Shown one piece after another: positions 8,963 through 17,470 of a stretch of DNA of 64,000 nucleotides. The notes under the pieces were generated by a model. It was given only the letters and a program-made list of their open reading frames with translations, did no database searches and was not told where the DNA came from. This stretch comes from Saccharopolyspora spinosa NRRL 18395. Its GTDB lineage: Bacteria > Actinomycetota > Actinomycetes > Mycobacteriales > Pseudonocardiaceae. Within the stretch, counting starts at the first letter, position 1. Each line of letters starts with the position of its first letter. The position numbers and the translations under genes are program-made. Location: NCBI RefSeq assembly GCF_000194155.1, contig NZ_GL877879.1:1848637-1912636 (forward strand). Direction: 5' to 3'.

Positions 8963-10198
8963 GTGCGTGTGTTGTTGACGACGTGGGGATCGCGCGGGGA
9001 CGTCGAACCGCTGGCAGGACTCGCGGTGGCGTTGCGGGAACTCGGCGCGGAGGCGCGGGTGTGCGCGCCGCCGGACAAGGAGTTCGCGAAGCTGCTGGAG
9101 CGTGTCGGCGTGCCGCTGGTACCGCTCGGTCCGACGGTGCACTCGGTCGTCGCCAACCCGAAGCCACCGAGGGCGCAAGACGCGTTCCAGCTCGCTCCCG
9201 CGCTGGTCGCCGCGCGGTTCGAAACGCTCACCGCGGCGGCCGAGGGATGTGACGCGCTGCTGGCGACCGGCCTGATGCCGGCTGGCGCACGGGACGTGGC
9301 CGAGAAACTGGGCATCCACTACGTGCTCGCGTGCTTCCACCGCCTCGGGCTGCCGTCGCGGCACTTCCCTCCGGGGAGACGGCCGGGCACACCGTCCCCG
9401 CAGGAGGAGACCGACAACCGGGTGCTGTGGGAGCAGGACGCCCAGAGGGTGAACGCCTTGTACGGCGAAGCGCTCAACAGCCATCGGGCGGCGATCGGCC
9501 TGCCACCGGTGGACAACGTCCGCGACCACGTCCTCACCGGCCAGCCGTGGCTGGCGGCGGACGCGACACTGTGTCCGTCGCAAGGCACGACGGACCTCGA
9601 CGTCGTGCAGACCGGGGCGTGGATCCTGCCCGACGAACGCCCGCTCCCGGACGGGCTGAAGGCGTTCCTGGACACCGGCGCGCCACCGGTGTACGTGGGC
9701 TTCGGCAGCATGGCCGCGCACGCCCCGAAAGGCATCGCCCGGGTGGCCATCGAGGCGGTCCGCGCGCAGGGCCGCCGGGTCGTCCTCGCCCGCGGCTGGG
9801 CCGAGTTGACCCCGATCGACGACGCCGACGACTGCTTCGTCCTCGGCGAGGTCAACCAGCAGGCACTGTTCCGCAGGGTGGCCGCCGTCGTGCACCACGG
9901 CGGCGCGGGCACCACCACGACGGCAGCCCGAGCCGGTGCGCCCCAGGTGATCGTGCCCCAGATCGCGGACCAGCCGTACTGGGCCACCCGAGTGGCCGAG
10001 CTGGGCATCGGCGCGGCACACGAGGGCTCGACACCGACCGTCGACTCCCTGTCCGCCGCGCTCACCACGGCCCTGACCAGCGAGACCCAAACGCGAGCCA
10101 GGACCGTGGCCGGCACGATCCGAGCCGACGGGGCGACGGTGGCCGCGAAACTGCTCCTCGATGCAGCCAGCCGGAAAAAGCCGCCCGTAACCGTGTAA
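8963..10198 (+). CDS. UDP-/NDP-sugar glycosyltransferase, GT1 (MGT/EryCIII-like) family
   Basis: About 411 residues with a GT-B fold. The N-terminus VRVLLTTWGSRGDVEPLAGL carries the GSRGDVxP acceptor-domain motif of macrolide, glycopeptide and sterol glycosyltransferases. The C-terminal donor site is VVHHGGAGTTTTAARAGAPQ then VPQIADQPYWATRV, the HHGGxGT...P...DQ signature. It would attach a sugar from an NDP donor to a lipophilic acceptor. GTG at 8963, with GGGGAG before it, matches the family N-terminus; ATG at 8918 would add 15 residues but overlaps the stop of a small upstream ORF. No deoxysugar or polyketide genes are nearby, so a detoxifying role is as likely as a biosynthetic one. Confidence 0.85.
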   Translation: MRVLLTTWGSRGDVEPLAGLAVALRELGAEARVCAPPDKEFAKLLERVGVPLVPLGPTVHSVVANPKPPRAQDAFQLAPALVAARFETLTAAAEGCDALLATGLMPAGARDVAEKLGIHYVLACFHRLGLPSRHFPPGRRPGTPSPQEETDNRVLWEQDAQRVNALYGEALNSHRAAIGLPPVDNVRDHVLTGQPWLAADATLCPSQGTTDLDVVQTGAWILPDERPLPDGLKAFLDTGAPPVYVGFGSMAAHAPKGIARVAIEAVRAQGRRVVLARGWAELTPIDDADDCFVLGEVNQQALFRRVAAVVHHGGAGTTTTAARAGAPQVIVPQIADQPYWATRVAELGIGAAHEGSTPTVDSLSAALTTALTSETQTRARTVAGTIRADGATVAAKLLLDAASRKKPPVTV

Positions 10199-13356: not shown

Positions 13357-14788
13357 TTAAATATCGGGTTCAGCAGCGGAAACGGTGCGCCTCGCCAGTA
13401 CGACTTCGGCGAGGGCTACGACCAGGGCGACCGTGACGAAGCCGACCGAGACGATCAGGCCGTCCGAGATCGCCGCGTCGAAGCCGCTCGTCATTAGGGT
13501 GCCGAAGAACAGGCCCGAGGCCGCCGCCGTGCCCACAGCCGAGCCTATGCGCTGGCCCGTCTGCTGGACTCCCGCCGCCGTCCCGCCGTGGGCGGCGTCG
13601 ATCTCGCTCAGCGTCACCGTCTGGTTCGGCGAGATCACCAGGCCGCTGCCGATTCCGGCGATCAGCAGCGGCAGCGCCGTTACCAGTCCGGCCGCCTCTC
13701 CCGGGTGCGTGGCCAGCAGCAGGTCCGTCGCCAGCAGGCCGAGCAGCGCCGCCGCTAAGCCGATGATCACCAGTCGTCGGCCCATCCGGTGCACGATCCG
13801 GCCGCCGAGGGCCGACGCCACCGCCGAGCCGACCGCGAACGGCGTCAGCGCCAGTCCGGCCTGTAGCGCCGAATAGCCGAGGCCGCGCTGGAAGTACACC
13901 GCCAGCACGAAAAAGATGCTGGTGAATCCGGCGAAGTACAGCAGCCCCAGCATTGCGCCGAACGAGTAGCTCTACACCAGCCGCAGGTTCACCAGCGGAG
14001 CGAGCCCCCTCGCCCGATACCAGTACTCCCACGCCACGAACAGCGCCAGGAGGACCACGGCGACGAGACGCTCCCCAGCCGCCTTCCTGCTCGACCAGCG
14101 GCAACAACAGGCACAGCAGGCCACCGCCGAGCAGCAGCACCCCGACCAGGTCGAGGCTGCGGGACTGTTCGCGCGCGCCGTCGCGCGGCAGCACCCGCAG
14201 CCCGTAGAGCACCGCCGCGATACCGATGGGCAGGTTCACGAAGAACACCCAGCGCCAGCCGTGCTCCTGCCCGGCGAGCTGGATGATCAAGCCGCCCAGC
14301 AGCGGGCCGATCGCCGTCGAGATGCCGACCACCGCGCCGAACAGGCCAAAAGCCTTGCCGCGCTCGCGGCCGTGGAACAACTGCTGCATAAGGCCGAGCA
14401 CCTGCGGGTTGAGCAACCCGCCAGCCACCCCCTGCAACAGGCGGGCGATGACCAGCCACAGCGGGGTCAACGCGAATCCGGCCAGCGCGCTGGCCAGCGT
14501 GAAAGCCGCCAGCGCCAGCAGGAACATCCGGCTCCGGCCCCGGTCGTCGCCGAGCCGACCGGCCGGCACCAGGACCAGCCCGAAGGTCAGGGCGTAGCCG
14601 GAGACCACCCACGACAGCGCCGCCGCCGGCGCGTCCAACCCCTGCTGGATCGACGGCAGCGCGACGTTGACGATGCTGACGTCGAGCAGGGTCATGAATC
14701 CGGCGACTAAGCAGATGGCCAGCACTCGCCAGCGCCGCGCGCTCTCCTGCTCCTCGGCGGTCTTCGCCACTGGCCTGGTGCTGTTCAC
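13357..14788 (-). pseudogene. MFS drug exporter (DHA2/EmrB-like, 14-TM type), broken by frameshift and nonsense codon
   Basis: The N-terminal half is a sound MFS protein: LVAGFMTLLDVSIVNVALPS (DHA2 motif D1 region), GRLGDDRGRSRMFL (motif A) and GPLLGGLI (motif C). After VEQEGGW the frame shifts near 14070; the correct continuation RLVAVVLLALFVAWEYW then LVNLRLV meets an in-frame TAG (13972-13974). The same frame resumes SYSFGAMLGLLYFAGF to the end at 13357. Two lesions make it a pseudogene unless it is expressed as fragments. It is divergent from the XRE-TetR regulator, the usual layout for a TetR-controlled pump. Confidence 0.85.
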
Positions 14789-15023
14789 GAGTTCAGCTCA
14801 GCACGTTCGTTCTACGCTCGCACCATCCGAGACTCGCACCGGCATTGCGACCGACTGACTTATCAATCACAACCCACTCCATGCGCGATCGTCGCCACGG
14901 GCCGCGTTAATGCGATTAGCTAGGAATGTTGCTCCACTGAGAGGCATCCCACGGCAAACAGCCGGGATCGCAACACGCACAGTTCATTGCGATTATCGCA
15001 ATGAACTGTTAGCGTTCCGTCCC
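14789..15023. other. divergent promoter region between MFS pseudogene and XRE-TetR regulator
   Basis: 235 bp shared by two outward-facing genes. Its right end holds the 29-bp palindrome described separately. The lower-GC stretch around 14850-14950 has TTAATGCGATTAG, a partial copy of the TTGCGATTA core of that palindrome. Confidence 0.45.
14980..15008 (+). promoter_or_regulatory. perfect 29-bp palindromic operator
   Basis: Arms CAGTTCATTGCGA and TCGCAATGAACTG, each 13 bases with no mismatch, around a TTA centre. It ends 15 bp before the GTG of the XRE-TetR regulator, so binding there would block its transcription or translation start. This is the expected autoregulatory site for a TetR dimer, and it may also control the divergent pump gene. 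Confidence 0.75.
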
Positions 15024-15884
15024 GTGCAGGACACGACGGCTGCGTTGCGCCAGCGGGTGCGCGACGTGTTGCGCAAGTATCCGGGGAGCCAGCGTGCCTT
15101 CGCCGAGCGGATCGGACTGGATCCGACGAAGCTCTCCAAGTCGCTGACCGGGATCCGCCGGTTCACCCCGGTCGAGCTCACCCGGATCGCCGGGCTCACC
15201 GGTGTCACGGTGAACTGGCTGATCTACGGCGGCGACAACGTCGAGACGGCTGCTGCCGCGCCGCAGCGCACCGCACGGCCCGAGCGCGAACCGGGCGACC
15301 TCCGCGAAGCGGGCCGGTACCAGCAGATCCTCGACGCCGCCTGGACGCTGATCGCCGAGCGCGGCTACCACTCGGTGCGGGTCGCCGACGTCGCCAAGGC
15401 CTGCGGCACCAGCGCCGCGACCATCCACTACTACTTCCCCGGCCGCAACGACCTGCTCACCGAGACCCTGCGCTACTCGGTGCGGCTGGCCTTCGACCGG
15501 CAGGTCGCCGAACTGCAGAGCATCCAGGACGCCTACGAACGCCTGCTGCGGCTGGTGGAGCTCCAACTGCCCACGCCGGGCCTGCTGCGCGCGGAGTGGT
15601 CGATCTGGCTGCAGGTGTGGACCGAGAGCGCCCTGAACCCGGATCTCCAGGTGCTGCACAGCGATTCCTACACGCGCTGGCACGACACGATCGCCCGCAC
15701 CATCCGGCAGGGCCAGCAGCAGGGCGCGTTCACCGACACCGACGCGGAAGAGCTCACCGTGACGCTGACCGCGCTCATCGACGGGCTGGGCATCCAGGTG
15801 CTCGCCGGGCGGCCCGGCCGGTCGGTGGAGCGGATGCGCCGGGTGCTGCGCGAGTTCGTCGAGCGCGAGATCGTCCGGCATTGA
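15024..15884 (+). CDS. XRE-TetR fusion transcriptional regulator
   Basis: 286 residues with two DNA-binding domains. Residues 1-75 form an XRE/lambda-repressor-type HTH (SQRAFAERIGLDPTKLSKSL, then LTGVTVNWLIYG). Residues 95-145 form a TetR HTH (ILDAAWTLIAERGYHSVRVA, then CGTSAATIHYYFPGRNDLL). The rest is a BetI-like ligand-binding helical domain. GTG at 15024 is used because upstream codons lie inside the palindromic operator. A one-gene fusion of these HTHs beside carnitine-catabolism genes suggests it once sensed carnitine, betaine or an acyl-CoA; that is inference. The downstream targets are now broken. Confidence 0.8.
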   Translation: MQDTTAALRQRVRDVLRKYPGSQRAFAERIGLDPTKLSKSLTGIRRFTPVELTRIAGLTGVTVNWLIYGGDNVETAAAAPQRTARPEREPGDLREAGRYQQILDAAWTLIAERGYHSVRVADVAKACGTSAATIHYYFPGRNDLLTETLRYSVRLAFDRQVAELQSIQDAYERLLRLVELQLPTPGLLRAEWSIWLQVWTESALNPDLQVLHSDSYTRWHDTIARTIRQGQQQGAFTDTDAEELTVTLTALIDGLGIQVLAGRPGRSVERMRRVLREFVEREIVRH

Positions 15885-15956
15885 AGTGAAAAATCCACCG
15901 TGCGTGGATTCCGGCGCACCCGGGCGATCGGCCACACCCACGGAAAGGAGAGCCCG

Positions 15957-16450
15957 ATGGGCGACGAAGTGATCATCACGCCGCGCTCACCGGCGCCGGT
16001 GACACCACCGGCAAGAGCGAGTTCGTCCCGGTCACCCTCGGAACAGATCGCCAAGTCCGCGGTGGAGGCCGCCGCGGCCAGCGCGGCCGTGGCGCAAATC
16101 CACGTCCGCAACATCGAGACCGGGCAGGGCTCCCGCGACGTGTCGCTCTACCGCGAGGTGGTGGAGCGGATTAAGGAGACCGGCATCGACGTGGTCATCA
16201 ACCTGACCGCAGGGATGGGCGGCGACCTGGTCATCGACGTCGACGACCCGCTCAAGCCGGTGGACGGCCCCGACCGCGCTGGGCGGTAACGTCCGCGTCG
16301 GCCTGGAGGACAACCTCTATCTGAGCCGGGGCGTCAAGGCCACCAACGGACAGCTGGTCGAACGCGCGGTGACGATCGTCGAGGGCATGGGCACGAAGGT
16401 CGCCACCCCCGGACCAGGCCCGCGAACAGTTCGGCCTCGAGAAGCGTTGA
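15957..16450 (+). pseudogene. BKACE-family (DUF849) beta-keto acid cleavage enzyme, internally deleted
   Basis: The N-terminus MGDEVIIT and the later [30 protein letters not shown] and [19 protein letters not shown] are clear BKACE sequence, broken by two compensating frame changes near 15985-16045. It then jumps to the far C-terminus in another frame: [30 protein letters not shown], and after another shift [12 protein letters not shown] before TGA at 16450. Some 170 central residues, with most catalytic ones, are gone. Dehydrocarnitine-cleaving BKACE enzymes sit next to carnitine dehydrogenase, and a piece of that enzyme follows here. Confidence 0.8.
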
Positions 16451-16461
16451 TCCGAACGGCT

Positions 16462-16540
16462 GGGCTGTCCTCCCGAGGAGACGTCTGAGAACCCGCCGCG
16501 GTGCGAGCTGAGTCCCCACGCCGCAAGCGGCTACGCCGCT
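16462..16540. repeat. REP-like element, right-half copy inside carnitine-locus remnant
   Basis: GGGCTGTCCTCCCGAGGAG then TCTGAGAACCCGC parallels 18866-18908, and GGCTACGCCGCTTGC downstream parallels GGCTACGCCGCTCGC near 18930. The copy lies exactly between the BKACE and carnitine dehydrogenase remnants, so the element may have taken part in the deletions there. Confidence 0.45.
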
Positions 16541-16995
16541 TGCACAGCCCCGGCGCTGGAAGAAGCCGTCGCCGAGGCCGACTTCGTGCAGGAGAGCGCG
16601 CCGGAAGACCTTGCGCTCAAACGGGATCTGCTGGCTCGCATCGACGCGGCGACCCCGGTGGGCGTCGTGGTCTCGTCTTGCACCTCCGGCTACGGCATGA
16701 CCGAGATGCAGGTGGACTGCCCGACGCCGCAGCGGCTCGTGGTCGCGCACCCGTTCAACCCGCCGTACATCATCCCGCTGGTCGAGGTCGTCGGCGGCGA
16801 GCGGACCGAGCCGTGGGCGGTGCAGTGGGCAGCGGAGTTCTTCGAGGTCGCGCATTGGTGGCGACCGAGGAGATCATGGCGCTGCACGTGGACGGTCAGA
16901 AGGGCGGCACGACGCCGTTCCCGACGGCTGTGGCGGAGCGGTTCGCCGGCCTGGCCGAGCCCGCGCCGGAGTACGCGGACCGATCCATCGGCTGA
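16530..16995 (+). pseudogene. L-carnitine dehydrogenase / thioesterase fusion, fragmentary
   Basis: Frames join as EEAVAEADFVQESAPEDLAL, KRDLLARIDAATPVGVVVSS, CTSGYGMTEMQVDCPTPQRL and VAHPFNPPYIIPLVEVVGGE. This is the 3-hydroxyacyl-CoA-dehydrogenase-type core with the HPFNPP motif. The following frame gives TEEIMALHVDGQKGGTTPFP and ERFAGLAEPAPEYADRSIG, the end of the hot-dog thioesterase domain found fused to bacterial carnitine dehydrogenases. The Rossmann N-terminus and several hundred middle bases are missing. With the BKACE remnant it marks a lost carnitine-to-betaine pathway. Confidence 0.7.
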
Positions 16996-17470
16996 ACGCC
17001 ACAGGTGAGCGGGCCCCTGTTGCCGGCATAACGGCGGTACCGAAGGAGATCCCGTAGTGGATCGGAAGTGCGGGCGCGAAGAAGAACACCAGGAACCAGC
17101 CAACAACACTCAGACCGCCGTGATCCCCGGCCCGCACGCGCAACAGGCTCCACGACGGCAGTTCCGGACGCGGCCACGCCTCGGCCAGCCACTTGATCAG
17201 CGGGTTGTCGTCGGCCAGGTCGAGCCAGCCGGTGGGCAAGCAGCGCGCGATGAAGGTCGGATCGTCGTGCCACACCCGCATCAGGTAGACCGTGCACAAC
17301 ACCTGGTTCAGGTAGATCGCGCCGACACCGCGAGCAGCCAGAAACCCGGATGCCGCAACGAGGTTGTGCGCTCTGCGCCGTGCGGACGGGACCACCGCCA
17401 GCTGGCCAAGACGGCCCTTGCGGACAAGACGATCAGGGTGCCCAGGACGTCCAACACATTTCTCCCACAA
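16994..17470 (-). pseudogene. membrane protein remnant, frameshifted and truncated
   Basis: Minus strand. One frame starts NVLDVLGTLIVLSARAVLAS then WRWSRPHGAER, a first transmembrane segment. The frame shifts near 17335 to GVGAIYLNQVLCTVYLMRVW, then FIARCLPTGWLDLADDNPLI and KWLAEAWPRPELPSWSLLRV. After about residue 110 it joins unrelated hydrophobic sequence (VVGWFLVFFFAPALPIHYGI). It looks like the front half of a conserved actinobacterial multi-pass protein of unknown function. Not expressible as one chain. Confidence 0.5.

Follow-up and report, generated by a model that had tools for sequence, protein, structure and literature searches.

In the TetR family, Bacillus FadR has a TGAATGA-type palindrome as its operator, and BetI is a repressor that responds to choline. 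Animal POU transcription factors place lambda-repressor-like and homeodomain-like heads on one chain, connected by a flexible linker, and bind a composite site. In Pseudomonas aeruginosa, carnitine catabolism is regulated by CdhR, which controls the carnitine dehydrogenase genes (excerpts of PMC5806209). Close to the regulator considered here is a protein of Saccharomonospora viridis (PDB 4ICH), named a 'putative TetR family transcriptional regulator'; it has the same domain order over its full length, with a construct matched over residues 7-285, and its TetR body aligns to the model of our regulator with a Z score of 27.3 and 62% identity. This orthologue has been solved alone (4ICH), with choline (4KWA), with benzamidine (4JNN), and with a ligand whose partial name reads as trimethylamine (4NEL), with coordinates for the TetR part only (193 of 311 residues). 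Searches of the open-licence literature with its PDB codes found no operator, function or paper. Searches there for XRE-TetR fusions, dual-HTH TetR proteins and carnitine regulators likewise found no paper on this XRE-TetR regulator, which does not prove that none exists, and no regulator of carnitine-type catabolism in actinobacteria.

Here, we analyse the proposed operators of an XRE-TetR regulator gene in a 64,000-nt stretch of Saccharopolyspora spinosa DNA (the window, taken whole); coordinates without a genome, contig or locus label count from its first letter. The regulator shares with BetI the BetI-type TetR_C_6 domain and a link to quaternary amines, but BetI as modelled has no XRE domain, and the regulator's neighbours are of the carnitine type rather than that of choline oxidation. 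FadR is among the structural neighbours, and the half-sites and spacing of its operator resemble TGACTGAnnnnTCAGTCA, the second motif described below; however, it lacks an XRE domain and its ligand is an acyl-CoA (a stearoyl-CoA complex, according to the structure title). The likeness to POU factors – two head types, a flexible linker and a composite site – is our own analogy, and they differ in having an unrelated architecture and belonging to another kingdom, whereas the XRE-TetR protein is a ligand-sensing dimer. CdhR resembles the system in having a gene divergent from its targets and half-sites round a main site, but belongs to the AraC/GATase-1 family, uses direct repeats and is a class I activator (excerpts of PMC5806209).

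The XRE-TetR regulator and its neighbourhood

The features of the locus are collected in Table 1. Profile matches bear out the initial annotation in giving the regulator two HTH domains, with the XRE domain matching HTH_31 (32.8 bits) and HTH_3 (25.5 bits), and the remainder matching TetR_N (58.3 bits) and TetR_C_6 (101.9 bits), all past the cut-offs. The protein has the architecture of the TetR family – an N-terminal TetR HTH followed by an all-helical ligand/dimer domain, with a modelled body that matches TetR structures – and the XRE part has the five-helix HTH of XRE/lambda-repressor-like domains, by profile matches and by the helices modelled within residues 3-68. BetI is the best NCBIfam hit, at 83 bits against an equivalog cut-off of 201.3. 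In an AlphaFold2 model (26 sequences, pLDDT 86.7), this N-terminal domain is helical (3-68) and is joined to the TetR body by a linker modelled at low confidence (73-91), which would allow the XRE heads onto either side of a TetR site or onto a separate palindrome. A VIA-align structure search with the full chain gave no match to the XRE part among its results. The regulator has a dN/dS of 0.26 to its nearest relative and 0.11 between two relatives, on too few changes to judge constraint.

Table 1. Positions of features in and around the regulator locus
Feature	Position	Strand	Remarks
Divergent MFS transporter gene	13357..14788	-	Split over two frames; two MFS_1 pieces
XRE half-site TTGCGA	14845..14850	+	Precedes the TetR-type palindrome by one base; putative composite operator
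TetR-type palindrome CGACTGACTTATCAATCA	14852..14869	.	Candidate site for a TetR dimer at the divergent promoter; 12 of 14 informative bases
Additional XRE half-site TCGCAA	14968..14973	.	Upstream of core; GATCGCAA block conserved in 16 aligned regions
Perfect palindrome	14979..15009	.	31 bp; arms 14979-14993 and 14995-15009, one-base centre 14994, zero mismatches
Outer 6 bases of each palindrome arm	flanks within 14979..15009		Without conservation in relatives
Operator core TTGCGATTATCGCAA (consensus TTGCGAnnnTCGCAA)	14987..15001	.	Proposed XRE-dimer site; conserved in relatives
Predicted -35 box TTGCGA	14987..14992	+	Same bases as the core's left half-site
Predicted -10 box TAGCGT	15010..15015	+	8 nt before GTG; conserved in intergenic alignment
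XRE-TetR regulator, 286 aa	15024..15884	+	XRE 22-66, TetR_N 102-147, BetI-type C-terminal domain 172-283
Remnants of BKACE and 3-hydroxyacyl-CoA/carnitine-dehydrogenase-like genes	15900..17008	+	Five deletions relative to G351

At 32 named loci, genes for a BKACE and a 3HCDH protein often come after the regulator gene, which faces a BCCT gene or an MFS gene of the DHA2 type. The BKACE (322 bits), BCCT (535 bits) and 4HBT_2 (102 bits) neighbours all score past their Pfam cut-offs, and the best NCBIfam hit of the 3HCDH protein is L-carnitine dehydrogenase (PRK07066), at 349 bits below the cut-off of 414. Carnitine dehydrogenase and BKACE form part of a route from carnitine through dehydrocarnitine and betainyl-CoA to glycine betaine (excerpts of PMC12482172). 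The BCCT, BKACE and carnitine-dehydrogenase-like neighbours, together with the choline-bound crystal structure of the orthologue, suggest quaternary amines as the signal, and because the S. viridis orthologue was solved with choline, benzamidine and apparent trimethylamine, the TetR pocket is one that takes amines.

Relative to its closest relative (G351), the window lacks approximately 390, 380, 720, 250 and 440 bases in and after the operon, whereas the genes of G351 are intact, its counterpart of the MFS gene encoding a 482-aa protein. Across 13357-17130 the full local target set (MFS, BKACE, dehydrogenase and onward) is broken or partly deleted by comparison with G351, while the regulator and the operators are intact; these appear to have outlived their local targets in this species. 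Elsewhere in the genome, a BKACE gene (C5:63094) and two full-length BCCT genes are without internal stops.

The palindrome at the predicted regulator promoter

The initial annotation had placed a perfect palindrome of 29 bp 15 bp before the regulator start codon. The palindrome is indeed perfect and adjacent to the GTG at 15024, but measures 31 bp, with 15-base arms (left ACAGTTCATTGCGAT, right ATCGCAATGAACTGT) around a one-base centre, T, and ends 14 bp before the start. It is the longest perfect inverted repeat in the window (loop of at most 5), the next two having 10-base arms, and arms of 15 bases were seen in none of 40 dinucleotide-shuffled windows, one of which reached 14. The 31-base motif occurs once in the window, and its inner 23 bases occur once in the 8.58-Mb genome with up to 3 mismatches allowed. 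A plasmid similarity search with the intergenic region matched nothing.

Homologues were sought in 390 genomes of the family, all of which have some TetR-type match and far fewer of which have an orthologue; they were found at 39 loci of named genomes, the close ones mostly in Saccharopolyspora, Actinopolyspora and Nocardiopsis. With 77 further loci added, 139 locus records including the window were scanned (a species fetched twice being counted twice), and motifs were counted in 117 distinct upstream regions, with identical upstream regions or proteins taken once. The conserved part of the palindrome is its 15-bp core, with the consensus TTGCGAnnnTCGCAA, which is present with at most one mismatch in 81 of the 96 upstream regions of genes whose products carry KLSK in the XRE helix, and in none of 15 XRE-less, 4 TALSK and 2 unparsed regions (0.0009 in shuffles); it is thus absent from all 19 regions without an intact XRE KLSK helix (15 XRE-less and 4 TALSK). 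Residues K36, L37, S38 and K39 are invariant across 26 aligned proteins, and the four TALSK proteins, whose upstream regions are without the core, have alanine in place of K36. At those loci (L099, L100, L110 and L111) TALSK stands in place of TKLSK in the XRE helix, and neither motif is found within 350 bp upstream. Seven of the 96 KLSK regions have the core only at three or more mismatches; five of these, all from one group, have neither motif, and the two of them with mapped neighbours (L053 and L063) lack the BKACE and dehydrogenase clusters as well. Among remoter homologues, L064 has the core at two mismatches and L065 has neither motif. On a TetR-domain tree made by a quick method the XRE status changes two or three times, and the core follows it in both of two independent pairs, too few to reach significance. 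Two loci, L081 (broken frame) and L087 (misaligned), were kept as their own class in the upstream-region count and left out of the tree. We propose that the core belongs with the XRE domain and is an XRE-dimer site.

Beyond the core, pairing of the arms exceeds the permuted level 8 bases out from the centre, where 41 of 78 regions pair, and slightly at 9 (33 of 78), and is at chance level in relatives from 10 to 15 bases; only 1 of the 78 regions has 15-base arms. The outer arms were considered as a conserved operator and rejected for the relatives on this chance-level pairing. Since the outer symmetry is at chance in relatives, the long arms are a chance or lineage-specific lengthening of a shorter operator. 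It is very unlikely that the full 31 bp is functional, with ACAGTTC/GAACTGT arms acting as weak TetR half-sites round the XRE core so that four heads share one symmetric site. Two relatives carry comparable bases at the same places (GTCAGTTCA in L012 and CAGTC/GACTG in L046), and in 6 of 74 non-abutting regions CAGT precedes the core by 6-7 bases; but besides the scarcity of 15-base arms and the chance-level outer pairing, the right arm overlaps bases conserved for the promoter (CTGTTAG), and the window was picked for its perfect palindrome, which selects for chance extension. The site looks like a dimer-bound operator of the adjacent regulator, as had been suggested, but because the recognised part is the 15-bp core, the length of the arms gives no evidence for unusually strong binding.

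The position of the core is tied to a predicted promoter. TANNNT follows TTGCGA by 16-18 nt in all 109 locus records with the core at up to two mismatches (species fetched twice again counted twice), and the start codon follows after another 6-9 nt in 104 of these, a distance that is partly built in because the starts of relatives were chosen by script as the first in frame at least 12 bases past the core. In-frame extension of the gene upstream lacks conservation (one codon in L048). The regulator mRNA is probably leaderless, and the operator spans the -35 box and spacer of a leaderless-looking promoter; by sequence, the arrangement is that of an autoregulated leaderless promoter, in which the -10 box stands immediately ahead of the start codon and the operator lies across the -35 box. 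Because the core overlaps the -35 box of this probable leaderless promoter, autorepression of the regulator is likely.

A perfect inverted repeat would fold in RNA transcribed from farther upstream, and the palindrome could in principle act as an RNA hairpin or terminator, or serve another regulator. This is highly improbable, as the predicted -10 box and start are downstream of the palindrome, its outer stem lacks conservation, and the core is tied to the presence of the adjacent regulator. Nor is it a dispersed repeat, the alternative that the initial annotation had named: the exact core is found in 20 of 22 genomes of the genus, once in 18 and twice in two (G352 and G362), compared with three places in total for the reversed control.

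The TetR-type palindrome and a probable composite operator

Alignment of 16 intergenic regions reveals conserved blocks that coincide with the core, the half-sites and a TetR-type palindrome, with additional conserved elements at 14845-14869 and 14968-14973. A partial copy of the core had been reported near 14907; this stretch varies among the 16 regions, and the candidate was dropped for want of conservation.

XRE-less homologues have palindromes of the type (C)TGACTGACGCGTCAGTCA(G). The motif TGACTGAnnnnTCAGTCA is present with up to two mismatches in 12 of the 15 XRE-less regions (0.0017 in shuffles), and in 31 of the 96 XRE-KLSK regions, rising to 62 of 96 when three are allowed (0.0085 in shuffles). 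A TetR-type score of at least 10 of 14 is reached in 76 of 92 regions, with shuffle means near 8.2, and a score as good as that of the window's palindrome was obtained in none of 60 shuffles. The palindromic operators characteristic of the TetR family are thus represented by candidate sites in XRE-less and XRE-bearing homologues and in the window. In XRE-bearing regions, about one third of which have no TetR-type palindrome at up to three mismatches, the palindrome either abuts the core or lies farther upstream towards the divergent gene.

XRE hexamers usually accompany these palindromes where the homologue has an XRE domain. Such a hexamer is found no more than 25 bp away from the palindrome at 52 of 62 XRE-bearing loci and at none of 13 others (12 XRE-less and L081), and near random positions in the same regions in 0.19 of draws. 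The commonest layout has TTGCGA 1 or 2 nt 5′ of the palindrome (29 hits), and in the L026/L027 group XRE half-sites stand on either side (gcgttgcgatt-CGACTGATGAGTCAGTTG-cgcaacg). The pattern TTGCGAN{1,2}CNACTGANNNNTCA is found in 19 of the 22 genomes of the genus, that of the window being one of them, and nowhere in the reversed control.

These observations bear on which domain reads the core. A TetR protein commonly binds a single palindrome at the promoter of its own gene, and every homologue examined has a TetR domain; the TetR heads might thus recognise the TTGCGA palindrome in the manner of a conventional TetR autoregulator, leaving the XRE domain a role in dimerisation or contacts but no DNA specificity. 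We regard this as unlikely, because XRE-less homologues with a similar TetR HTH lack the core (0 of 15) and mostly have the other palindrome (12 of 15), because XRE hexamers occur beside TetR-type palindromes only where an XRE domain is present, and because two loci with the same TetR HTH stretch differ, the core being present only in the XRE-bearing L132 and both motifs absent from L089. The earlier suggestion that one or both domains recognise the site can be made more specific: the core follows the XRE domain, and the TetR domain most likely reads the palindrome at 14852-14869, which the initial annotation had overlooked. Each head probably reads its own word, which would make the site at the divergent transporter promoter a composite operator.

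Sites elsewhere in the genomes and a proposed model of regulation

The 20 genomes of the genus with the exact core are exactly those with a close orthologue; in the two that lack it, G357 and G360, the protein is matched only remotely (E values of 1.6e-11 and 7.0e-13). The additional match in G352 is explained by its location in a repeat array (L212 4950-6450), in which about 19 copies of a ~37-nt repeat starting GTTGCGATCCTCGCCAGCC recur with a CRISPR-array-like period of 71-75 bp. The additional core in G362 (L211 6500-7100) lies close to a decayed second copy of the XRE-TetR gene, which is accompanied by operators of both types, and to a permease gene that was identified by eye as NCS1-like. 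In Amycolatopsis taiwanensis, an isolated exact TTGCGANNNTCGCAA lies 5616 bp upstream of the homologue (L050 ~350-400); it is the only extra site at up to one mismatch across 1.14 Mb of loci, and the reversed control also has one.

Within the window's own genome, the core with up to one mismatch is found at 10 places, as is its reversed control, and is uninformative for the regulon by itself. At C1:2021816-2021956 (L168 ~9816-9957), however, TetR-type and core-like sites with one mismatch each lie about 120 bp apart, in a region matched in 12 of the 22 genomes of the genus; L223-L230 and L231 are loci of relatives with this pair. Among eight aligned loci of this kind, our own included, TTGCGAAAGTAGCAA does not vary and the TetR-type site hardly does, and the TetR-type word of this locus is present with up to one mismatch in 10 of the 22 genomes and not in the reversed control. 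In G351 the site precedes a solute-binding-protein and permease operon of an ABC transporter of the peptide-transporter type (named by eye); in our genome the solute-binding-protein gene there is a fragment. A tblastn search of the 15-kb stretch around the G351 site gave no convincing regulator homologue. We predict that the pair of sites before the ABC-transporter operon is a target in trans.

The two motifs, their conservation and link to domain content, the promoter geometry and the gene neighbourhood are read from the DNA itself, and with fairly good confidence we infer from them that the core is an autoregulatory operator, that XRE and TetR heads read separate words, and that an amine loosens repression. 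The core would serve the protein encoded just downstream, whose dimer would set its two N-terminal XRE (lambda-repressor-like) heads on both TTGCGA half-sites and, because the left half-site doubles as the -35 box, would block RNA polymerase at the regulator's own, probably leaderless, promoter. Towards the divergent transporter gene, the TetR heads of the same dimer would read the TGACTGAnnnnTCAGTCA palindrome, and since a single XRE half-site adjoins it, both kinds of head could grip together through the flexible linker. In vivo, the complex would be loosened once the TetR pocket holds a quaternary or tertiary amine (carnitine, choline or a product), and the transporter and catabolic genes would be induced.

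A further reading, to which we give somewhat less than an even chance, is that the regulator is a bacterial analogue of POU factors, in which lambda-repressor-like and homeodomain-like heads of one polypeptide read different words. The dimer would lock either onto the XRE palindrome at its own promoter or onto a TetR palindrome with one or two XRE half-sites at transporter promoters, so that one amine signal would set two kinds of promoter with different logic, and a lineage without the XRE head would have operators without the XRE word.

One-component regulators are usually pictured with one sensor and one DNA-reading head. Here, sequence comparison assigns a separate, testable DNA word to each head in a single chain, and the many species supply natural variants in which a head is absent, a head is altered, or one site is lost. 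The analysis also puts forward a candidate regulator of actinobacterial carnitine-type catabolism, and suggests a possible function for structures deposited in 2013 (4ICH and 4KWA).
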